From a virus, in the IMG/VR virus record IMGVR_UViG_3300009068_000065, positions 1 to 45,811 of that record: a stretch of 45,811 bases of DNA; one strand, written 5' to 3'. The translations under genes were made by a program, and so were the position numbers. Positions 1 through 34,126 of this stretch are shown here, one piece after another (within the stretch, counting starts at the first letter, position 1; every line of letters starts with the position of its first letter). The notes under the pieces were generated by a model, which saw only the letters and a program-made list of their open reading frames with translations, had not been told where the DNA came from and did no database searches.

Positions 1-819
1 GAATTGTAAGAGCTTCAGTGCTTCCGTTTTGCAACATTGTACCAGATAGCCCTAGCGCATATTTAGAGTCCATACAATTTACAAGTATCTTCTTTATTGA
101 ATTTGCATTTGTGTGGTGCGCCTCATCTACGCAAACTGCATCAATCCCTTCAAAGAAAAAAGGTTCACGTTTTACCAAAGATTGATATGTTCCAATAACC
201 AGATGGACATCCTTTTTTGTCTTGTCCGTTCCTCCGTGAATTAGTTGCGTTACAAACTCTAACTTATCATTATTGTAAAGCTCAAAGTCTTCATTTGTTT
301 GAATAATAAGATTTGTATTTGGGACAATAATAAGCATTCGATTAGCCTTTCCCCTGTCAACCAAGTATCCGAAAAGCATAAACATGATAAGGGTCTTTCC
401 AGCAGAAGTTGCAATTTCACTAATACTTCTACGATATTTTAAGATAGGAATGCATGCCTCAATTTGGTAATCACGAGGTTTAATTTTTGGATGGTCGGAA
501 AAAAACTCCTCCACCCAACTACGAAAATCAGCCTCATCAAAGTCTTCATCAATAACACGAGAAAACCCATCCACTTCCAACTTAAAATGATACTTTGCGC
601 ATACCTGGTTTAACTCATTCCAAAGGCCTACTGGTATACGATTGTATTTGTCAATAAATGAAATGTACCCATCCCAGACTTTTTTTTTACAAGTGGATGA
701 AATCTCCAGTTAGATATTCTTTTCTTAAAAGAATGTCTAATTTGTTCAATTTCAAGTTCACTGCATTCTGTAATTTGTAAAAATCTATTGTCAGGTGTTA
801 TTTCAGCTTTCACTTCCAT
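1..819 (-). CDS. uvsW: UvsW-type ATP-dependent DNA helicase, N-terminal part (frame interrupted; runs off left edge)
   Basis: T4 UvsW is a superfamily 2 helicase that unwinds branched intermediates such as Holliday junctions, D-loops and R-loops. The visible part begins at the ATG at 819 (MEVKAEITPDNRF). It continues with an N-terminal domain whose RFHP...VWDGY spacing matches T4 UvsW (RFNP...NWDGR), then motif I (ATSAGKT, about residue 140), motif II (DEAHH, about 230) and motif III (LSGT, about 256). The rest lies left of base 1. The frame is not continuous. It shifts at an A9 run (680-688): upstream codons read GTA AAA AAA AAG and stop at 628 if unshifted, whereas the helicase frame needs one more A. 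This could be a sequencing error, a real mutation or -1 slippage. The start is the second copy of a duplicated 5' end and overlaps the stop of the homing endonuclease gene. UvsW identity is secure; expression of full-length protein is not. Confidence 0.9.
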
Positions 820-1618
820 TTTTATTTTTTTTAAGATGCCTAATATCACAAAGAGGGTCATTTACTTCTAATAACCACCCTTCTATGAGATTGTTTTTTA
901 CTCTGTGCCTTGACACATTAAAATGCCTGGCAGCCGCAGAGATGTTATTAAAATTTAATTCCATATTAGATTCTATACACAAAGCGGAAATAGTTCTTGA
1001 ATGAAGTTGTGTCTTATTAAGATTAGCACTTCGTAATCTTTCTTTTTGTTCTTCTGTATAAGTTCTGCCTTTGCCATTTTCGCTAATCTTTTGCCTATGT
1101 TCTACCGTAAGAGTTTTTCCTTTATGTGCTTCTGACAATTTTTTCTTTGTCTCATCGGATAGTTTTTTGCCAGTGTGTGCTTCTGACAATTTTTTCTTTG
1201 TCTCATCGGATAGTTTTTTGCCAGTGTTGCCTTTACTAATAGCGTCTTTGTGTTCTTCTGTTAATTTCATTCCGTATCTAAAAGCGTTTTCTCCAATGTA
1301 TTTACCTTTTAGCGTATGCGATATCTTTTCTTTGATCTCGTCATTCATGGTAAAGCAATTCCATCCGCCTTCTGCTATGTTATATCCAATCTCTTTATTT
1401 TGCGAGTCTAGACATTTAATCCAGTACTTTTCTTTCTCATCTAATTCTTCCTGAGTTGAAGCCTCATCAATGTATTCTTTTACAAAGTTTTCGGGCCCAT
1501 ATTTCTCTACGGCTTGCAATATTAAATTTCCACTACCTAGATAATTTTCTCTTTTGAAATGAGTTTGGCCTATGTAGATTTTGCCATTTAGCAAATTAGT
1601 AACTTTATAGATGAACAT
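803..1618 (-). CDS. GIY-YIG homing endonuclease with NUMOD3 repeats
   Basis: A free-standing homing endonuclease of 271 aa that would cut alleles lacking it and spread by gene conversion. The GIY-YIG domain is at the N-terminus (FIYKVTNLLNGKIYIGQT; Y4 and Y15 as the two tyrosines, basic residues around 20-23, and a Glu near 60 in DEKEKYWIK). It is followed by tandem NUMOD3-type DNA-binding segments (GKKLSDETKKKLSEAHTG and relatives, about residues 120-195) and a C-terminal helix-turn-helix of the NUMOD1/IENR1 kind (ISAAARHFNVSRHRVKNNL). Two NUMOD3 units are encoded by a perfect 51-bp tandem repeat. The gene ends 17 bases inside uvsW, with its TGA in the same sequence context as the stop of the nuclease gene at 1779, so it has taken over the junction with uvsW. 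An ATATATAAAG motif lies just upstream of its ATG. Domain assignment is firm; the target site is inferred to be the uvsW 5' region. Confidence 0.9.
   Translation of the reverse strand: MFIYKVTNLLNGKIYIGQTHFKRENYLGSGNLILQAVEKYGPENFVKEYIDEASTQEELDEKEKYWIKCLDSQNKEIGYNIAEGGWNCFTMNDEIKEKISHTLKGKYIGENAFRYGMKLTEEHKDAISKGNTGKKLSDETKKKLSEAHTGKKLSDETKKKLSEAHKGKTLTVEHRQKISENGKGRTYTEEQKERLRSANLNKTQLHSRTISALCIESNMELNFNNISAAARHFNVSRHRVKNNLIEGWLLEVNDPLCDIRHLKKNKNGSES
1125..1226 (-). repeat. Perfect 51-bp tandem repeat, two units, in the endonuclease gene
   Basis: The units 1125-1175 and 1176-1226 are identical. They encode two successive 17-residue NUMOD3 segments (core KKLSDETKKKLSEAH). The lack of any silent difference indicates a very recent duplication or ongoing copy-number change of the DNA-binding repeats. 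Flanking NUMOD3 units are more diverged. Confidence 0.9.
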
Positions 1619-4270: not shown

Positions 4271-5197
4271 TTAAATTGAACCGTAAAGCTCGTCGTCAAA
4301 AGAGCCGCCATCAAAATCATCAAGATTCAAAGAATCGAAGACTTCACCAACTTTTGGTAGTGGCTCAGCAGATTTTTCGGTGATTTTTGTTGTAGCCGGT
4401 TGAGAAGAGGCTACAGATTCTCGATTAACTTTTTCAACGCTAGCAACTACTCGTCCGCCTGGAACAGTGTTGCGAATCACGTCATTTACAAAGTCCTCGG
4501 TTGCGTTATCCCACTCCTGGTAATCATATATACCAAGATCTGGTGATTGCTCCAAGAATGCTTTGATTTTTTCCATATCATCAGCAGACTTTTGCATTTC
4601 ATTGCCTTCAATAGAAATTGGAACTCGCTCATCAAGGAAACGACAGTTGTCGTAGTTGTTATATCCAGCCACTTTGGTAATATGAACCAAAAACGGTTTG
4701 CCTTCAAAAAGGTCAAACGGAATATGTGGCTTTCCAAACTCAGGCTTCATTTCTGCCTGTAATTTGTTAAAGATTTTTACGCCATAAGACCATACCATAA
4801 TCTTTCCAACGTTTTCAGGAGCATTGTCATCTTTAATGATCTGTACTAAAGAGGCAAAACGCTGACGGCGAGAAAAATTCTCAGCCATTTTTTGCTCAGC
4901 AACTGAATCAGATTTTTTGAATTTCCAGAACATATCCTGGAGTACAGATTTTTTGCCAACAGTTGATGGGCAGTCTACCATGCGTGCTTCGTCATTTGCT
5001 GGATTGGTTAACCAACAAGACCATTTTTTCATGACAGATTTTTTAGGATCTTTATGCCAAGGCAAGAATCGAACTACAGCTTTGTATACTCCGTCACGCC
5101 CAGAATTTGCATCAGGTTTGAAATTGCTGGTAGCTCTTTTTTCTTCAGTTTTGAAGTCGTCTACCGATAGGTTGAAAATGTCATTTAGATTTTCCAT
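4271..5197 (-). CDS. 32: Single-stranded DNA-binding protein, T4 gp32-like
   Basis: Coats ssDNA in replication, recombination and repair. The 308-aa length matches T4 gp32 (301 aa). The N-terminal part has basic residues (KTEEKRATSNFK). A core OB-fold region includes VYKAVVRFLPWHKD and a block on filament contacts (PENVGKIMVWSYGVKIF). The C-terminal tail is acidic (SLNLDDFDGGSFDDELYG), as expected for partner recruitment. The zinc site of T4 gp32 (H, C, CxxC) appears lost: H48, C61 and C76 are present, but the CxxC pair after CPSTVGKK is missing. It is the first gene after a 168-base non-coding leader and probably heads the gp32-primase-uvsY transcript. Confidence 0.92.
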   Translation of the reverse strand: MENLNDIFNLSVDDFKTEEKRATSNFKPDANSGRDGVYKAVVRFLPWHKDPKKSVMKKWSCWLTNPANDEARMVDCPSTVGKKSVLQDMFWKFKKSDSVAEQKMAENFSRRQRFASLVQIIKDDNAPENVGKIMVWSYGVKIFNKLQAEMKPEFGKPHIPFDLFEGKPFLVHITKVAGYNNYDNCRFLDERVPISIEGNEMQKSADDMEKIKAFLEQSPDLGIYDYQEWDNATEDFVNDVIRNTVPGGRVVASVEKVNRESVASSQPATTKITEKSAEPLPKVGEVFDSLNLDDFDGGSFDDELYGSI

Positions 5198-5365
5198 GTC
5201 TTTACTTTCTTTTAGTTTTTAGTGTTCTTTGAGGTACTTGAGTTATTGACTGACTTTTAGATTCTTAGGTCCTTTTCAGCTATACGGGTCCTTGCATGTA
5301 CCGTTGCAATTTTCCGTTTTGTTTATTTTTAATGTATCGCTTATATACTTTCACGGTAAAAGGTT
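5198..5365 (-). promoter_or_regulatory. Leader and promoter region of gene 32
   Basis: This is the longest gene-free stretch in the replication block (168 bases). On the minus strand it starts with GTGAAAGTATATAAGCG, a possible promoter. It then has an A-rich segment, two copies of AAGGACC about 20 bases apart, and a purine-rich run (AAAGAAAGTAAAGAC) directly before the ATG in place of a Shine-Dalgarno sequence. GGTAC and GTACC could pair across about 60 bases, and ACGG with CCGT locally. T4 gp32 represses its own mRNA through a leader pseudoknot followed by an unstructured stretch, so an equivalent control site here is plausible but unproven. Confidence 0.4.
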
Positions 5366-5638
5366 TTAGTCTTCTTTAGAAGCTGCTATATTAGATGCCA
5401 TCTTCTTTAGGGTTTCCGCTGGGATTCCCAATTCTTTAGAAGTATTGATAAAAAATATCTCTTCGTATTTTCTTATTTCTGTCAGGGATTCTACCACCTT
5501 TTTTTGTTCGGCTAAAAAGTGTTGTACCCAGGTTTCCAGTTCTTGCAAGTCTTTATACAAATTATTGTATGCTTCCACCATCTCCGCTATCTCTTGGAGA
5601 TGCTCCTCTGAAAATGGTATTTCTGTAATTTGTTCCAT
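5366..5638 (-). CDS. Small acidic helical protein, DsbA-like by position
   Basis: A 90-aa acidic protein predicted to be almost entirely helical, with a central coiled-coil stretch (AYNNLYKDLQELETWVQHF...) and a C-terminal segment LGIPAETLKKMASNI that resembles a short helix-turn-helix. I do not recognise a family with certainty. In T4 the gene directly upstream of gene 32 is dsbA (89 aa, a dsDNA-binding protein that affects late promoters), which has a comparable size and a similar DELG-containing turn. This is a hint only. It follows the RuvC-like gene by 12 bases and precedes the gene 32 leader. Confidence 0.75.
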   Translation of the reverse strand: MEQITEIPFSEEHLQEIAEMVEAYNNLYKDLQELETWVQHFLAEQKKVVESLTEIRKYEEIFFINTSKELGIPAETLKKMASNIAASKED

Positions 5639-5650
5639 ATAACTTTATAT

Positions 5651-6295
5651 TCACGCCTTTGAAATAGTTTTTTCTAGAGTACAAGCAACCCAATATGAAT
5701 CCACAATATCATCAAGCGGCTTTAACCAGCCTCCTTTTTTATTTTGAAATTCAGCAGGGGCGTCTCTTAGCATTCTAGCAAATTTACTGTCTGCCGGCGA
5801 GGCTTTAATAAACTCCTCAATCATTTCCTCCTTTTTGTAGTTTCCCTTTCCAGCAGTGGCCTTAACAGTCATTGGAGAAAACAACCAAATGTTTTCTATC
5901 TTAACACCCAACTCTCTAATAAGTCTTGTACGTAATGCCCATTGGTATCCACTAATCTGTGCAAGCCTATTTCCGGTAGAGGCAAAAGAAAAACCTTCAA
6001 TTGCTATGTAGGTTTCATCATCAATAGGATATTGTCGAAGGACCTCAACAATAGCGTCAATTTCCATTAGTGAGTCGTGCATAGAAGATCTCTCGCGGTC
6101 TGTTAAATTTGCACTTTTTGAAAGAGGTTTTTCGTCTTCAAGAACATGAAGCATTACGCCATACTTTTGAAGTGTTATTGCAAAATCTTCTTTGATAACC
6201 GACCTTCTGGGAAATGAATGATACCTAATTGTACCTAAATTACTTTTAACAGTAATGGCTGGACTTTTGATTGAAAAGTCAATACCTATAATCAT
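5651..6295 (-). CDS. RuvC-like Holliday junction resolvase (RNase H fold)
   Basis: Expected to cut four-way junctions during recombination and genome resolution before packaging. The 214-aa protein shows the RuvC acidic set: D6 in IIGIDFSIKSPA, E100 in IAIEGFSF, and the C-terminal D195/D196/D199 in KPLDDIVDSYWVA. The TGNRLAQISGYQWALR segment after the glutamate is also typical. T4 uses the unrelated gp49 for this job, so a RuvC-type enzyme marks divergence from T4. The ATG overlaps the stop of the upstream glycine-zipper gene (ATGA, 6292-6295). Confidence 0.85.
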   Translation of the reverse strand: MIIGIDFSIKSPAITVKSNLGTIRYHSFPRRSVIKEDFAITLQKYGVMLHVLEDEKPLSKSANLTDRERSSMHDSLMEIDAIVEVLRQYPIDDETYIAIEGFSFASTGNRLAQISGYQWALRTRLIRELGVKIENIWLFSPMTVKATAGKGNYKKEEMIEEFIKASPADSKFARMLRDAPAEFQNKKGGWLKPLDDIVDSYWVACTLEKTISKA

Positions 6296-6618
6296 TTTCC
6301 AATGTTTTTTCCAATTGCTGCACCTAACGCGGTAGACACCAATCGGGATGTAAGCATATCAAAAAGAATCCCCTTTTCAACGCCTAATGCATTTGCTATA
6401 ATTTTTCCAATAGTAGGTCCTATAATAAATCCGGCTGCGCCTCCAATAATGGAGCTGATGATGCCTTCATTGATACCGTTAATTCCATGAATTTCTACGG
6501 CTTCCTGTATTTCTTTGTAGATTCGTTCTGCTTCTAACTTTTCAGATTCAGTCAAATACTCTAAATCTACGCTTTCTTGTAAAAACGGCAGATTTCGTGC
6601 CTCGTCAAATGTTTTCAT
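6292..6618 (-). CDS. Small glycine-zipper hydrophobic protein
   Basis: A 108-aa protein of unknown function. The first half is acidic and helical (about 1-45). The second half carries two glycine-spaced hydrophobic stretches, IISSIIGGAAGFIIGPTIG (about 54-72) and LVSTALGAAIGKNIGK at the C-terminus, a pattern of membrane-inserting or membrane-active glycine-zipper helices. It could be a virion-associated membrane protein or a lysis helper. It lies between tail genes and the RuvC gene, preceded by an ATATATAG motif, so late expression is likely. No signal peptide is apparent. Confidence 0.75.
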   Translation of the reverse strand: MKTFDEARNLPFLQESVDLEYLTESEKLEAERIYKEIQEAVEIHGINGINEGIISSIIGGAAGFIIGPTIGKIIANALGVEKGILFDMLTSRLVSTALGAAIGKNIGK

Positions 6619-6631
6619 AGCGTTTCTTTTT

Positions 6632-6640
6632 CTATATATT
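6632..6640 (-). promoter_or_regulatory. Late-promoter-like motif AATATATAG
   Basis: It fills most of the 23-base gap between the tail-tube-fold gene and the 108-aa gene, ending 13 bases before the ATG at 6618. The same ATATATAG octamer occurs before the genes starting at 16670 and 31013. It would also drive the resolvase gene, which is coupled to the 108-aa gene. Inferred from motif recurrence and resemblance to T4 late promoters. Confidence 0.42.
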
Positions 6641-6641
6641 A

Positions 6642-7193
6642 TTAGTAATTCTGCAGTCTCTTCATGATATTGATGTAATTGTACTTGAAATTAACGGTAA
6701 AGTTACGGAACTCTGCAGTATTTGAAGCATAGTTAAGTTCCAGCTCGGAGATGCCAGTCATTGTAATTTGTTGGAAATTTACTGCAACAAACTCAAAACC
6801 AGTGTGGTCAAGAAAAGAAAGCGTTAAATCTGGCAGATATTTTTCCTTGTTGTCAAGATCATAGTAGGCAAACATTTGATCAAAAAAGATCCAATAATTG
6901 ATCCAGCCTTCGTATGACTTTAGAGTCATATTAATTGACCTATCAAGATACCGTTCAATTCGTTTTCCGCCTTTTGCTGTAACGGGCTCTTCATAAAGAA
7001 CCTGCTCAACAGTTTCTGCCGTTAAGGCTGGAAATGAAACTGATTGTATACTTGCACTCATGTAATCAGGAATGTTATCATAAGGAAGAGGTAGTCTCTT
7101 TAGATAGGTTGTGTACTTATCAACAACTGATGGATAAAAAAAGTTCTTTGGGAACCTTACCAAAAAATTGTTGTTCCGGCTATTTAATATCAT
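6642..7193 (-). CDS. Tail-tube-fold protein (gp19/gp54-like)
   Basis: A 183-aa protein. Its C-terminal half has the strand order and composition of myovirus tube proteins: a strand-turn-strand LTLSFLDHTGFEFVAV, then MTGISELELNYASNTAEFR and a final alternating strand FTVNFKYNYINI. T4 gp19 (163 aa) ends with the equivalent of SSTDEIAEFEVTFQYQYW. The N-terminus (NNFLVRFPKNFFYPS...) and FPALTAETVEQ also fit. It may be the tube subunit or a tube-like baseplate adaptor such as gp48/gp54; the sequence alone does not decide. It overlaps the upstream 718-aa gene by ATGA (7190-7193). Confidence 0.6.
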   Translation of the reverse strand: MILNSRNNNFLVRFPKNFFYPSVVDKYTTYLKRLPLPYDNIPDYMSASIQSVSFPALTAETVEQVLYEEPVTAKGGKRIERYLDRSINMTLKSYEGWINYWIFFDQMFAYYDLDNKEKYLPDLTLSFLDHTGFEFVAVNFQQITMTGISELELNYASNTAEFRNFTVNFKYNYINIMKRLQNY

Positions 7194-19700: not shown

Positions 19701-22700
19701 AACCTACTAATGTTGGTGTCCTTGTAATAGTTTGATCCTTGAGCTTTAATGGAATAGTTAAATGAATATGTAACAAGTGTTGTAGATGACCAATTTCTCC
19801 AAATTTGTAAATTGGTTATTCTGGCCCGGGTGAGTTTGGCCTCTTCTGCGTTTAGATTAAACAGCAGCTTTCTAACATAATTTCGTGTTCCAATAGCTGT
19901 GTATTGCGGTCCTTTATTTGCCTGATCATTTGCCAGCGGAGCTGGCTCTGGATTCGCCGCATTGTAAGGTCCTTTATTTGCTGTTAGTGTTGAATCAAGG
20001 TAATCATTTGGAACCTCCATGAAATCATAAAAATACGGCGGGTATTGTGTATTGATTTGAAGAGTGCGCATACTGCTGATGCTTTCAGCCGATGGAGGTC
20101 CTGGTACGCCCACTGAAGTTGACCAATCTGATGGACTTACTGCAAAACGTGAAACTATGTTATCTGTTTTTTTCCATGTTTTATCGGTGCTATCATAAAA
20201 TTCCAAATCAAAAGAGAGATCAAATTGATCGACATTTGGTAAACTTGGTGGTGTTATCTCTAAAACAATATCGTAATTTTCACCTACGTTGAGATTAAGC
20301 TCGCCTTCAATGTTTGCGGAAAGAGTTGTTGGATCATATACTCCAGTTACTTCTTCACGATTATAGTACCTAAATAGCTCTATTGTCGGTGTGTATGAAT
20401 AATCAGAAAAATATGTGTCAACATCAAAGGTTTTTAGCGGAAGTAGAGAAAGTATTCCAAATTTTGGGCGATAAACATTAAATGATACAATCTTCTTATC
20501 AAATGTAAAGAAAAACTCTTCCGTTGGTTTTTCCACTTGCATAATAGAACGTTCTGCGTAATTTGGAATAGCGTCTCCTTGTAAATCTGGTAGAGAATAT
20601 ACATATTTTCCTTGAACGTTCCAGGTTTTTAGTCTTGAAAAATTTTCTTTTTGTACTTGAAACCAACTTTGAACAATCAACTCATCATTGAGTATTGAGA
20701 GTTCGCCGGCTATTAGACTTACACTCGTAGCAGTGGCGGTGGCGTTTGAATTGATGATGATGGTTGTTCCACCAGCCAACACTGATAAAACTTTTGAGTT
20801 TGCTGGTATGCCCGGGCCGTTAATAGCGGATCCCACATAAATCCCTGCGCCATTTGTTATACCGCTAATGGTATTGGAACCGATGGTGGTATTTCCAGTT
20901 ATGTCTACTTTGCGGTTTTGATAAAAGCGCTCGCCATCAACTCGCGATACGGATGCGCGTGCCCTTTTTCTTTTTACACCGCCTACAAAGTATTGTTCGG
21001 ATTGGCCAACCCACCAGGTAATTGCCAAGACTCCGGCATAGGTTACAAACGGAGAAAAAGTAAATGGTGTAAGATCGATGGTAAATTCCTGAACGCTAAA
21101 AATTGTGGTAGATGGCCCTACACCGTACCAAATTGGAATACCTGTTGTTGTTGGGTTTAGCGGATCTACATCATATCGAACAAGTACAGTCCATTGTGTC
21201 AATGATACTGGTGTTATTGTCACATAAAAGTTTCTTTGCTCGTAAATTTGAGTATACGGCTGTGGCTGTATAGTTATAGGTGATGTTGCGGTATATGTTA
21301 TTTCTCCTAAATCTACATTTGATTGTTGGTAATATCCTAAAGCCTCTGGGTAACTATTACCCTCAATGTAAACACGCTTAATTGAAATGTTATTTCCATC
21401 CTCCCAATCCTTTAGTGATTTCATATACACCGCGTTTCCTATTGGTGTTGCCTTAACTATTCCATTTGGAAACTTATTGATACATTCGGCGATTGCCCTT
21501 GCAACTTCTTCTGGCGTTCCTTCATTGTTAAATGTATTGAGATTGTCACGTCCATAAGGATCAACTACTGGATAGTCCCATGCTTCCCCGGGCTGAAGAC
21601 CTACTGAATTAGCCTCCATTACCCAGCGATATGACATATAATTTGATTCTCCATAAAAGGTTAATGCCATTGCGCCAGTATTGGAGGCAGTTGCATACTC
21701 AATGTTTCCATCAAATACTTTAACATCCCATGTGTCTGTAACAACAGCCGTTCCGATACCAGCGGTTGACCATTCAAATTGTAAGTAGCTATCGATAAAG
21801 GCACTTCCGCTAGTTGGAGCAAAATCCACAATTTTAGTTGCGTAATACTCGGTGGGTACCGTGGGAGTTAGGCCTGCGTAATCGGGTACAATAATATCAA
21901 AAGTAACAACGGTACCGACTATGTTGGTAATTTCAAGTTTATAGTAGTAGTCTCTGCGCTCGGTATTAAGTTTTTTATACTCAATGATGATCTTTTCATC
22001 TGCTGCTAGTGGGCTTCCATTTTGGGCAATGTCTTCAATGTATATTACCATTTGTGAATTGCCTCCATCCAACAGGTCTGCCTGTATTTGTGCATTGATT
22101 TGAGTCAAGCCTCCGTAATCAGAAATGTTTTCTTCCTGATCAAAAAGTTGCAATTCAGTCACTCTTCTAAAACTAGGAGCGCCTGGCGACCCGTAATCAG
22201 TTTCTGTTAGTCGATTAACACGCTTAAAGCGGTCAAATCTGTCTTTGACATAAAAAAAACGTAAAGGATCATCTACCATAAAAGGCAGAGGAAACTTTCC
22301 ATTCGTAAGCCCAGCAAATTCTGGAGTTGCGGTGATATTGGTAGGACCTCCTATCGGATTGTGGTAGTAGTGAACTGGTAAAACTATTCCGTTTGTATTG
22401 GTTTGAATAAAAGGTTGCAAATTATAGGGTTCACCATCCACGCCTGGTTTAGGAGATGGCGACTGTCCAGTTATTGCTCCTAAAATAGTAGGCTCTATTT
22501 CAAATTCTGCTAACTGACTCTCAGTTACATAAAACCCAAAATAGCGATTAAGTGTATAAAGAGTTGCCTCATCATCATTAAACAAAAACTCTAAATTTAT
22601 GAGATTTGTGCTAATTAGACCATTTCGTTCAAACCCTTGAGTGATGTACTCTTCAAAATCTAAAATCCGGTTATCGGTATTCCAAAATTCATACAAAAAC

Positions 22701-31061: not shown

Positions 31062-31907
31062 TTAGTCTTTTTTTGTTTTATATTGCTCTGGAACTTCGCA
31101 TTCCCATTGTGAATCATACCAAAAACGCCTTCCGGTTTTATCAATTACAGAGTTGCCTTTTCCGTAGGTTATCATCCAATCCTTAAATGAATCTGCACTG
31201 GTGCCGTGTGGATTTACCCAATCTTTAAGTTGACCACCACCCAGGTAATAGGCATCGCGGATACAAAAATGGATCATTTTAAGAAGTGCTTCTACCTGAT
31301 CGCGATTCATTTCTTTTGCAATCATAAAGGGTGAAAAACTCATTCTTGAAAGTATTTCTGCTCTCAAGTAGTTTCCAACTCCGTTAAAATAATGCTGATT
31401 CATAAGTACCTCATTAAGCGGCGCAGCAAAAGCTTTGGATGTTTGCCAATTTGCTCTAACGTCATTTGCAAATTCATTGTATTCGGTTAGCGGGCATGCA
31501 CCTCGGTCCTTCCCCCAAACGCCCCATCGCCACTTGGCAAAACGCCGAACGTCATGCAGTACCAAAAGATCTCCACGAACCGTAGAAAGCCTTAAATGTG
31601 AATGCTTTAATACACGTTCCTTTTCTGGGCTATCATTTCGGACAAAGGCCCAAGTACCACTCATTCCAAGAGTAACTACCAGGGTTTTAGTTTCTTCTCC
31701 GGAAGGGCCGCCACCAACAAGCCCTAATTCCAACATCATTTCTTTGCCACGGCTATATGACTTAACGGTAAAAACCGCGCCTTCAAAAGGATCAAGTTCT
31801 GTTTTTACTTTAGAAACCTCCGACTTTTCAATACTGTCAAAAAATTGGTTGGTGGCAACCGCATTAATAAAGTCGCTCATCAGTTTTACTTCCGCTAACT
31901 CAGGCAT
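31062..31907 (-). CDS. Fpg/Nei-family DNA glycosylase/AP lyase, apparently zincless
   Basis: Removes oxidised bases and nicks the abasic site. The 281-aa protein starts MPELAEVK, giving the N-terminal Pro nucleophile and the following Glu. A lysine near 55 (YSRGKEMML) fits the conserved beta-elimination residue, and LGMSG (80-84) is typical. The helix-two-turn-helix is clear (LMNQHYFNGVGNYLRAEIL, about 168-186, with the conserved Asn). The C-terminal finger lacks the four cysteines of bacterial enzymes but keeps the hairpin with arginine (YGKGNSVIDKTGRRFWYDSQ), as in zincless viral and NEIL1-type members. The start overlaps the end of the exonuclease gene by 8 bases, so the two are translationally coupled. 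Confidence 0.92.
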   Translation of the reverse strand: MPELAEVKLMSDFINAVATNQFFDSIEKSEVSKVKTELDPFEGAVFTVKSYSRGKEMMLELGLVGGGPSGEETKTLVVTLGMSGTWAFVRNDSPEKERVLKHSHLRLSTVRGDLLVLHDVRRFAKWRWGVWGKDRGACPLTEYNEFANDVRANWQTSKAFAAPLNEVLMNQHYFNGVGNYLRAEILSRMSFSPFMIAKEMNRDQVEALLKMIHFCIRDAYYLGGGQLKDWVNPHGTSADSFKDWMITYGKGNSVIDKTGRRFWYDSQWECEVPEQYKTKKD

Positions 31908-32628
31908 CGTAAATGTTTTCTTTAATAGTTACTGGGTTGTAAACCTGGTATATCTTTTCGGCCATAAGAATCATTCCCTTGACATCCTTTTCGCAATACG
32001 TGGCTATACGTGAGTGTTCCCCGTTCCAAAACTTTTCGTGAACCTGACTTCCATCAATATCGTCTTTGGGTGTTGGTACTCCCATACCAAAACACGCCTC
32101 TTCAAAAGTTACATCCAGAGATGAACCACTCTTCCAGTAGTCTTTCATATCAAAAATACCCATTTCCCAAGGTTTCTTTTCGTAAGTTGAAAGAATTTGT
32201 GGTACGGGAATTCCGTTAATTAGTAGTCTACGAACAATCCACGGAACATCGAAGTTTTTTATGTTCCAACCAGTTGGAATTAGGCCGCTTGCTCCTGCTC
32301 GATGAAAAAGATTTGCCACCTTTTTTAGAAGAGTTTTTTCGTCTTTCTCAATAATAGTAGCAATTTGCATTTCTCCATTTTTCCATAAACCATAGGAAAG
32401 ACAAGCAATTCTACCAAATTCTGGAAAGAGGGCTACATTATTAGGATAATCTGCATGTGCATCACCGGTCCAACCTTTTCCATTGTTAAGTCTTTGTGAT
32501 TTTTTGGAAAAGATTTCTTCTGCTACCGGGCTGGTATTGTCAACGTGATCCTGTAGGTTTGGATATTGTCCACAGGTTTCAATGTCAAAAAAGAGAAACT
32601 TTTCAAACTTTGATTTAGTATATTCCAT
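31900..32628 (-). CDS. DnaQ/PolB-like 3'-5' exonuclease
   Basis: A 242-aa DEDD-type exonuclease of the RNase H-like superfamily. ExoI is FLFFDIETCG (D15, E17), ExoII is WNIKNFDVPWIVRR (D127), and ExoIII is the YxxxD form TYCEKDVKGM (Y211, D215), giving a DEDDy set. It resembles the stand-alone predicted PolB-type exonucleases, not a proofreading domain fused to a polymerase. It is the first gene of a two-gene unit with the glycosylase, which suggests DNA repair or nucleotide salvage. It shares a 127-base intergenic region with the divergent plus-strand genes. Confidence 0.88.
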   Translation of the reverse strand: MEYTKSKFEKFLFFDIETCGQYPNLQDHVDNTSPVAEEIFSKKSQRLNNGKGWTGDAHADYPNNVALFPEFGRIACLSYGLWKNGEMQIATIIEKDEKTLLKKVANLFHRAGASGLIPTGWNIKNFDVPWIVRRLLINGIPVPQILSTYEKKPWEMGIFDMKDYWKSGSSLDVTFEEACFGMGVPTPKDDIDGSQVHEKFWNGEHSRIATYCEKDVKGMILMAEKIYQVYNPVTIKENIYDA

Positions 32629-32755
32629 GTTATTTACTTTAGTGTTATATTCATGCAGTGTAAAAGGTTTTCTAAAACTTTTTATTTCTGGTGTATAAAA
32701 AAGATATCAGAAGTAAGGAGGAAAAATACTTACTTAGAGCACTAAACAAAACAAT
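32629..32755. promoter_or_regulatory. Divergent intergenic region between exonuclease and plus-strand cassette
   Basis: 127 bases between two divergent starts; it should hold promoters for both directions. Rightward, TATAAAA (32694-32700) is the best -10-like box. Leftward, GAATATAACAC is a weak candidate. AAGGAGG at 32715-32721 looks like a Shine-Dalgarno sequence but lies 34 bases from the next ATG with no suitable start in between. Both genes have A-rich leaders (AAACAAAACAAT before 32756; AAAGTAAATAAC before 32628). Confidence 0.45.
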
Positions 32756-33004
32756 ATGGAACAAGACTTAAAGACTAGAATGGAGTTCGCGAATGCACCT
32801 TGGCACTCATGTGAGCAGGGCAATTACCTGTATGACAATGCTACAATGTACAAAAGAATTTCTCCACTGATTTCACCATCTGGAAGAGAAGAGTTTGCAA
32901 TGGCAGAAGTTATTGTATGCAAGCAGTGCGGGAAGATTCCACCTTTTTTAGCAGCAAAGATGGGAGATTGTCCGGAAGACTTAAAGCCAACATGCAAAAA
33001 ATAA
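32756..33004 (+). CDS. Small cysteine-rich (zinc-ribbon-like) protein
   Basis: An 82-aa protein, one of only two plus-strand genes in the window. The C-terminal half has VIVCKQCGKIPPFLAAKMGDCPEDLKPTC, where four cysteines (CxxC, then C and C) could bind zinc. A fifth cysteine and a histidine occur near residues 17-19 (WHSC). I do not recognise the family; small zinc proteins of this size in phages often act on transcription or as adaptors. Its end overlaps the SET gene by 13 bases, indicating coupled translation. Confidence 0.75.
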   Translation: MEQDLKTRMEFANAPWHSCEQGNYLYDNATMYKRISPLISPSGREEFAMAEVIVCKQCGKIPPFLAAKMGDCPEDLKPTCKK

Positions 33005-33405
33005 ATGCCGAGTTTTCGTTAGAATTAAGAGACACTCCTCGTGGTTGGGGAGTGTTTTCACTTCAACCTATACCAGCAAACTCCACCATTGAAACCGCGC
33101 CTGGCATAATAGTGCCTCAACAATTTTTGAATGCCTGTTATTTTGCAGCCACCGCAGACGGACTTAAACCATCTGAAATTGTTTTGGATCAATACGGTCT
33201 AGGTTGGACAGATAACAATGTTTTCTTTCCTTTAGGTTGGATAGGGCTTTACAACCACTCCGATGAGCCTAATGCAATTTTTGCAGTACACTCCGAAAAA
33301 ACTCTTTCGGTAATTTCGCTAAAGGCTATAGCAGCAGACGAAGAAATTTTGGTATACTATGGAGAGGATTGGTGGGCTAAGAAGCCTTTCCTCCAGAAGC
33401 TTTAG
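32992..33405 (+). CDS. SET-domain protein (putative lysine methyltransferase)
   Basis: A compact 137-aa SET domain with little else, like the viral and bacterial single-domain forms. Visible motifs are RGWGVFSLQPIPANSTI (17-33, the N-terminal SET strand), YNHSDEPN (87-94, the NHS pseudoknot that binds S-adenosylmethionine) and EEILVYYG (117-124, with the catalytic-side tyrosines). I chose the ATG at 32992 because the SET fold begins just after it; an upstream in-frame ATG at 32917 would add 25 residues lying wholly inside the preceding gene. It would transfer methyl groups to lysines of an unknown host or phage protein. Its 3' end overlaps the convergent phoH-like gene by 29 bases. Confidence 0.85.
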   Translation: MQKINAEFSLELRDTPRGWGVFSLQPIPANSTIETAPGIIVPQQFLNACYFAATADGLKPSEIVLDQYGLGWTDNNVFFPLGWIGLYNHSDEPNAIFAVHSEKTLSVISLKAIAADEEILVYYGEDWWAKKPFLQKL

Positions 33406-34126
33406 ACTCTTCATACTTTTCAAATTCCTCTTCAATCTCAATGATAATAGGGTTTCTAACGATGTCGGACTTGTTAAAACGCATTGTTCCAAATTTATCC
33501 TTGCCTTCAAAAATTTCCATTACAATTTCTAAAGAGGATTCGGCCTTTTTTCGAATGTCAATTTGTTTGGAATCGCCAATAAGAACCAACTTACTGTTGT
33601 CACCTATTCGTGTCATTGCAGTTCTCATATTTTTGAGAGTGACATTTTGAGCCTCGTCAAGAATAATAACCGTATCATCAATGCTCCGCCCTCGAATGTA
33701 TGCCAGGGGCAAAACCTGGATAACCTCTTGATCTAAGAGTTTTTGCGTAACCGTTTTCCCAATGATTTTATGAAAGTTATCAATGAATGACTCCATAAAA
33801 GGCTCCATTTTTTCTTTCATCGTTCCTTTAAGGAAACCAATCTCTTCACCTTCTGTTACGGTAACGCTTTTTGCAATAATGATTCTTTTGATAGGACTAT
33901 CAGAACTTATCAGCAATTTAAGAGCTTCCACGCATGCCACAAAAGTTTTTCCTGTACCTGCGGGGCCTCCGCAAATAACCACATCTTTAGTGCGGATAAG
34001 TTTGGAAAGATGTTTTTGATTTTCGTTTTTAGGCTCAAACTTAAAAGTTATTCGCGGTTGAGTTGGTCTAGGAGTCGGCCATGAATCAATGTCCTCTTCG
34101 ACTTGGCTTTGTTTTTTTCTTGCCAT
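33377..34126 (-). CDS. phoH: PhoH-like ATPase
   Basis: A 249-aa P-loop ATPase of the PhoH family, related to the N-terminal half of superfamily 1 helicases and common in large phages. Walker A is GGPAGTGKT (53-61), Walker B is IILDEAQN (154-161), and the family blocks GEEIGFLKGTMKEKMEPF (93-110) and KLVLIGDSKQID (179-190) are present. Its cellular role is unsettled; RNA metabolism under stress is usually proposed. It starts directly after the HAD gene (TAAATG junction) and its 3' end meets the SET gene. Confidence 0.93.
   Translation of the reverse strand: MARKKQSQVEEDIDSWPTPRPTQPRITFKFEPKNENQKHLSKLIRTKDVVICGGPAGTGKTFVACVEALKLLISSDSPIKRIIIAKSVTVTEGEEIGFLKGTMKEKMEPFMESFIDNFHKIIGKTVTQKLLDQEVIQVLPLAYIRGRSIDDTVIILDEAQNVTLKNMRTAMTRIGDNSKLVLIGDSKQIDIRKKAESSLEIVMEIFEGKDKFGTMRFNKSDIVRNPIIIEIEEEFEKYEESKASGGKAS

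Follow-up and report, generated by a model that had tools for sequence, protein, structure and literature searches.

A small cysteine protein (P1) and a minimal SET-domain protein (SET) are encoded as a conserved two-gene cassette in one lineage of T4-like phages, and with a probability of about 0.42 we favour the reading that it is a modification cassette for the phage's core functions, in which P1 would bring SET to its own replication or transcription complex. This kind of enzyme is already known, from vSET among viral enzymes and from the SET proteins noted in phage Moby and in phage Ps15 (PMC9025141). What is new is the conserved pairing with a zinc ribbon of the clamp operon under a private promoter. 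For no phage SET enzyme was a protein target found in the literature searched, which was covered in part, and a conserved two-gene unit with its own promoter offers a small and concrete system for finding one. On a bolder and doubtful reading, the life cycle of a bacterial virus would be subject to an epigenetic-style control through a zinc ribbon on the clamp/clamp-loader or RNA polymerase.

The cassette and its SET protein

The window, i.e., the whole stretch of DNA that was analysed, is a 45,811-base IMG/VR viral contig that represents part of a T4-like phage and carries genes for baseplate wedge proteins, SSB, primase, exonuclease and resolvase. The coordinates, plus strand and 13-base overlap of the P1 and SET genes in the original prediction were exact, and the setting that it described, between a repair pair and phoH, was recovered with the glycosylase and exonuclease genes on one side and the PhoH gene on the other (Table 1). 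It had also called them the only two plus-strand genes, and no further convincing one was found in the 45.8-kb contig, where the other plus-strand ORFs are mostly antisense to long minus-strand genes. The convergent SET and PhoH genes overlap by 29 bp, a feature absent from that prediction. The overlap of P1 and SET suggests translational coupling, and overlaps of 10-13 bp also occur in the related loci L149/L151. The cassette is positioned within a structural gene cluster, with baseplate wedge proteins among its neighbours in the window. A homing endonuclease gene was also observed in the window.

Table 1. Positions of the cassette, its flanking genes and its regulatory sites in the window
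Feature	Position	Strand	Remarks
P1	32756-33004	+	82-aa small Cys protein; unnamed widespread phage zinc-ribbon family
SET	32992-33405	+	137-aa predicted minimal SET-domain protein-lysine methyltransferase; ATG at 32992
P1 stop/SET start overlap	32992-33004	+	13 bases
Fpg/Nei-like DNA glycosylase	31062-31907	-	Conserved flank
PolB-type 3'-5' exonuclease	31900-32628	-	Conserved flank
PhoH-like ATPase	33377-34126	-	Conserved flank
Cassette promoter, class A	32675-32699	+	AAACTTTTT-N8-TGTATAAA, 0 mismatches
-10 and conserved leader	32694-32721	+	TATAAAA..TATCAGAAG..AGGAGG, downstream of cassette promoter
Divergent exonuclease promoter, class B-like	32644-32670	-	AAACCTTTTACACTGCATGAATATAAC, 2 mismatches
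GIY-YIG homing endonuclease	803-1618	-	With NUMOD motifs

The identity of the SET methyltransferase, as originally proposed, lies far above chance, and the match to Pfam SET (PF00856) has an E value of 2.2e-11 and 44.6 bits against a cutoff of 22.4, covering profile positions 1-105 of 105. The single domain occupies residues 18-124 of the 137 aa, without pre-SET or post-SET zinc domains. The motifs GWG (18-20), YNHSDEPN (87-94, with NHSDEPN at 88-94) and YYG (122-124, with the catalytic Y123-G124) are all present; G18, G20, N88, H89 and Y123 are invariant across the lineage and the motif residues in general are invariant or nearly so. The AlphaFold model has a pLDDT of 90, and Foldseek gave an E value of 1.5e-9 to Set7, the best PDB folds being Set7, PFL0690c and vSET, which are also the top SET matches by profile. 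The full-length domain, the SAM-binding GxG, NHSxxPN and YG motifs, the SET fold and the minimal vSET-type size were all found together, and the loss of SAM-binding or catalytic residues on modelling, which had been named as a ground for abandoning the proposal, was not seen. The dN/dS ratio was about 0.07-0.30 (NG86, where dS was computable, with dS near saturation), and the gene, as judged from its sequences, is under purifying selection. We predict that SET is a SAM-dependent lysine methyltransferase, minimal and intact, of the same type as vSET and Set7, and it is very probably active because its motifs are intact, its fold is confidently modelled and its dN/dS is low.

Among these three best matches by fold and profile, vSET (A612L) of chlorella virus PBCV-1 (PDB 1n3j/3kma) is likewise a viral, minimal SET protein with no pre-SET or post-SET domain and with the same catalytic motifs. 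However, its virus infects a eukaryote and its name is that of a histone H3-Lys27 methyltransferase, whereas the SET of the window belongs to a T4-like phage and has a zinc-ribbon partner. To our knowledge, H3 would be absent from a bacterial host. Set7 of S. pombe (5h6z) and PFL0690c of Plasmodium (4rz0), the best PDB matches by structure and sequence with 27-30% identity, are eukaryotic, described as histone methyltransferases and without a zinc-ribbon partner gene.

In 66 loci of Bacteroidota and other bacteria, the small SET proteins are likewise single-domain, mostly of 120-140 aa, with the same motifs as the SET of the window, but most of them branch on the opposite side of the tree, with moderate support, and their neighbours differ, e.g., MgtE and lactonase genes. 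The SETs of the phage lineage are monophyletic (support 100/99) and branch apart from the bacterial SETs sampled. An acquisition from the sampled Bacteroidota SETs was considered and found unsupported, the lineage branching outside them. At L226, L229, L230 and comparable loci of freshwater Bacteroidota, SET was repeatedly observed between MgtE and lactonase-like genes on the opposite strand, the families of these neighbours having been checked in L226.

As to the claim that SET is rare in phages, only 8 of 50,697 INPHARED records were matched by tblastn with two SET queries, but at least 143 contig stretches of IMG/VR had a match. Short SET proteins are also encoded by the T4-like phages of Stenotrophomonas (Moby, Mendera, and Ps15 ORF62) and by megaphage LR756501; these are distant in sequence from the SET of the window, and no P1 was found beside them. 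In the megaphage (L028, 735 kb), SET was seen to be convergent with PhoH at 4974-6725, with one short minus-strand gene between the two.

The zinc-ribbon family of P1

P1 is a small cysteine-rich protein as predicted, with 5 Cys in 82 aa arranged as C19, C55-x2-C58-G and C80, the last being the probable fourth ligand. It has no Pfam or PHROG family, and its membership of an NCBIfam family was rejected because the weak match (E 0.0035) was far under the family's cutoff. A weak match to a Microcystis phage protein was the entry point to a large family with the core KRISPLxSPTGKE plus CxxCG, whose profile matches more than 120 phage proteins; the family was sampled by a pattern scan of IMG/VR with at least 120 matches. 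The family profile matched P1 of the window and of all lineage contigs with E values of 1e-31 or better. C19, C55 and C58 are conserved in the family, and the fourth Cys is located in nearly all members either in an N-terminal knuckle or near the C-terminus. Among 128 distinct members, with relatedness uncorrected, the tail Cys was present in 14 of the 14 in which the second knuckle Cys was lost and in 0 of the 102 with an intact CxnC knuckle; a further six, in which one N-terminal Cys was recognised, either are truncated or show a spacing of CC or C-x4-C, and six have no N-terminal Cys in the stretch scanned. An N-terminal Cys pair without the tail Cys also occurs within the SET lineage (L083 and ECCG types). 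These patterns point to a four-Cys metal site in the family, which would bind zinc. The AlphaFold model of P1 is moderately confident (pLDDT 77.7), and comparison with solved structures gave no match by fold and none by sequence, the best E value being 0.11 (RNAP subunit P).

In many T4-like phages the family forms part of the clamp/clamp-loader operon, because gp44 lies no more than three genes upstream in 84 of the 113 readable IMG/VR loci (L029-L148) and gp62 lies downstream in 63 of the 113. Most members are found between these two clamp-loader genes, without SET. The protein WWT39365.1 of Mel-JY01 and the 'Zn-finger protein' of Flavobacterium phage immuto are homologous to P1 over the full length and share the CxxCG core, but no SET adjoins these gp44-gp62 zinc ribbons, and their second Cys is in the N-terminal knuckle and not C-terminal as in P1. 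Since most relatives encode the family in a gp44-P1-gp62 operon, P1 probably has its binding partner in the phage machinery for replication or for clamp-dependent transcription. P1 of the lineage does not share this adjacency, gp44 being about 85 kb from P1 in two relatives, so we make no claim that it still acts at the clamp loader, and outside the clamp-loader operon the ancestral role may have changed. A gp62 query, run without a positive control, gave no match in the lineage contigs. The function of this family of T4-like phages, encoded in the clamp-loader operon and missing from Pfam and PHROGs, is worth finding in its own right.

This distribution does not support the original suggestion of a small protein that serves to deliver SET to a host target, and we reject dedicated adaptor of SET as the general role of P1 because most members of the family occur without SET. 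A host takeover, in which the P1 adaptor would deliver SET to a chromatin, ribosomal or RNA polymerase protein of the host, would agree with the intact SET and the conserved pair, and with the name given in the PDB to vSET, the closest viral solved structure. It is nevertheless unlikely in our judgement, given a P1 family that is older, widespread, usually without SET and located beside clamp-loader genes. A P1 that appears older than the pairing points to phage replication or transcription and not to a chromatin, ribosomal or RNA polymerase target of the host, and a target of SET in the virus's own replication or transcription machinery is more likely than a purpose-built device of host takeover.

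The target might also be P1 and nothing else, for instance the invariant K33 of its F/Y-K-R motif, with methylation switching its binding, so that the pair would be a self-contained regulator. K33 is indeed invariant in the P1s of the lineage, and every SET found of this clade is accompanied by P1. However, K33 is nearly as conserved in family members without SET, which implies another role for this residue, and no P1 lysine stands out as specific to the SET lineage; we regard the self-contained regulator as quite unlikely.

Pairing of P1 and SET in related phages

Single-sequence searches of IMG/VR with P1 and with SET gave no matches, and the relatives were reached via the exonuclease, DNA patterns and alignments. 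The exonuclease-, SET- and P1-seeded searches agree on the distribution of the pair. The conserved pairing, for which a search had been proposed originally, was found in 21 contigs including the window, all with the order exonuclease (-), P1 (+), SET (+) and PhoH (-) at the same place and in the same orientation; the L305/L396 fragment is counted here although its exonuclease side is cut off. Once we had grouped near-identical contigs, these represent about 14 distinct phages. A lack of joint conservation, the other ground that had been named for abandoning the proposal, was therefore not seen either. Each lineage contig has one copy of P1. P1 was present in all of the best 18 matches of the SET-seeded search, and no SET of this clade without an upstream P1 was found in the exonuclease-, SET- and P1-seeded searches. 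P1 without any SET match was found in six larger contigs (103-207 kb). Several contigs carry P1 of the same clade but no SET of this clade, and in the nearest such relatives P1 is at another locus. The syntenic locus of L399 reads PhoH, glycosyltransferase-like gene, P1 and Fpg on one strand with no SET adjoining P1, and the contig has a weak match to SET at another position.

In the P1 tree, the SET-less L104/L050 fall among the SET-bearing P1s, but a joint grouping of the SET-bearing P1s is not rejected (p-AU 0.59); either SET may have been lost in L104/L050, or it may have been gained once later. Because P1 is common without SET, SET of this clade is never found without P1 and the SETs of the lineage are monophyletic, P1 was probably there first and SET joined it later.

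The single origin of the lineage SET would also suit chance neighbours, with SET as a moron-like cargo (e.g., anti-defence) that settled behind P1 and was kept by vertical descent. In one phage, an inserted glycosyltransferase-like gene (L152:6841-7587, minus strand) separates P1 from SET, which shows that tight coupling is not essential, and SET is duplicated in tandem in one contig type; both observations would suit a cargo. On the other hand, the two genes remain adjacent on the same strand, and often overlapping, down to about 31-33% identity while the flanks take insertions, and chance neighbourhood is very unlikely.

Promoters and the proposed role of the cassette

The class A promoter of the cassette also precedes P1 in relatives and HSP20 in two relatives, and a promoter-like block upstream of P1 is common to the lineage loci inspected, except L124. 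In the group of the window, the class A promoter is followed by the leader TATCAGAA..AGGAG..GACT. Sites that combine the -10 with the leader number one in the window, three in a 202-kb relative and two in a 143-kb relative, with no more than 0.05 sites expected by chance (per mononucleotide shuffle). The three sites of the 202-kb relative lie before P1-SET, before HSP20 and divergent from SmpB, and the two of the 143-kb relative before P1-SET and HSP20. A class B promoter, AAACTTTTT-N8-TGAATATAAA, precedes the clamp loader, clamp, SSB, topoisomerase and sigma-factor genes, the clamp gene having been assigned by our own reading of the sequence, with no match in PHROGs. In the window, the exonuclease promoter stands back to back with that of the cassette. 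Because the cassette has its own conserved promoter-like block and leader on the opposite strand, it is, on this sequence evidence, an independent transcription unit, its timing being presumed. A T4 late promoter (TATAAATA) was considered for the cassette and rejected, the sole site in the window lying elsewhere.

Two genome-wide promoter classes with a common -35 box were observed in the 202-kb genome G005 (L206-L216) and the 143-kb genome G008 (L217-L224). The third class A promoter and leader of G005, at position 21479 (+) in L207, diverges from the phage SmpB gene, and no clear ORF was seen 3' of this site, which may mark a small RNA.

The one-way association of SET with P1, the clamp-loader context of the P1 family and the shared -35 box together favour a SET that works in a P1 complex. 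In one lineage, SET would have been placed directly behind P1, the unit being under its own promoter, and P1 would recruit SET to the P1-containing complex. There SET would methylate a lysine of a component, which may be the phage clamp, clamp loader, SSB, RNA polymerase or P1 itself, and the methylation would tune replication or transcription during infection. Zinc binding, the physical contact of P1 with SET, the target and the timing are the parts of this scheme that we infer. That the cassette is a lysine-methylation switch of the phage replisome or of clamp-dependent transcription, with the zinc ribbon docking and positioning SET, is doubtful.

The location of the cassette among baseplate and tail genes would fit a SET that modifies a virion protein, with P1 merely co-transcribed. 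This explanation is kept alive by second SET genes of a different clade in four relatives; in two of these, the gene adjoins the major capsid gene or is close to it. However, the cassette promoter is its own, on the opposite strand, of a class common to HSP20 and related to the promoters of replication genes, the second SETs examined carry a long N-terminal extension and form a clade of their own, and the one-way association of SET with P1 would be left unexplained. Modification of a virion protein therefore seems to us not very likely.

The second, longer SET clade was observed at L184:1492-2175 (-), L183:1495-2169 (-), G019:129072-129389 and G020:184871-185188. The gene in L184 lies directly 3' of the major capsid gene Gp23, and that in the L183 contig about 3 kb from Gp23.
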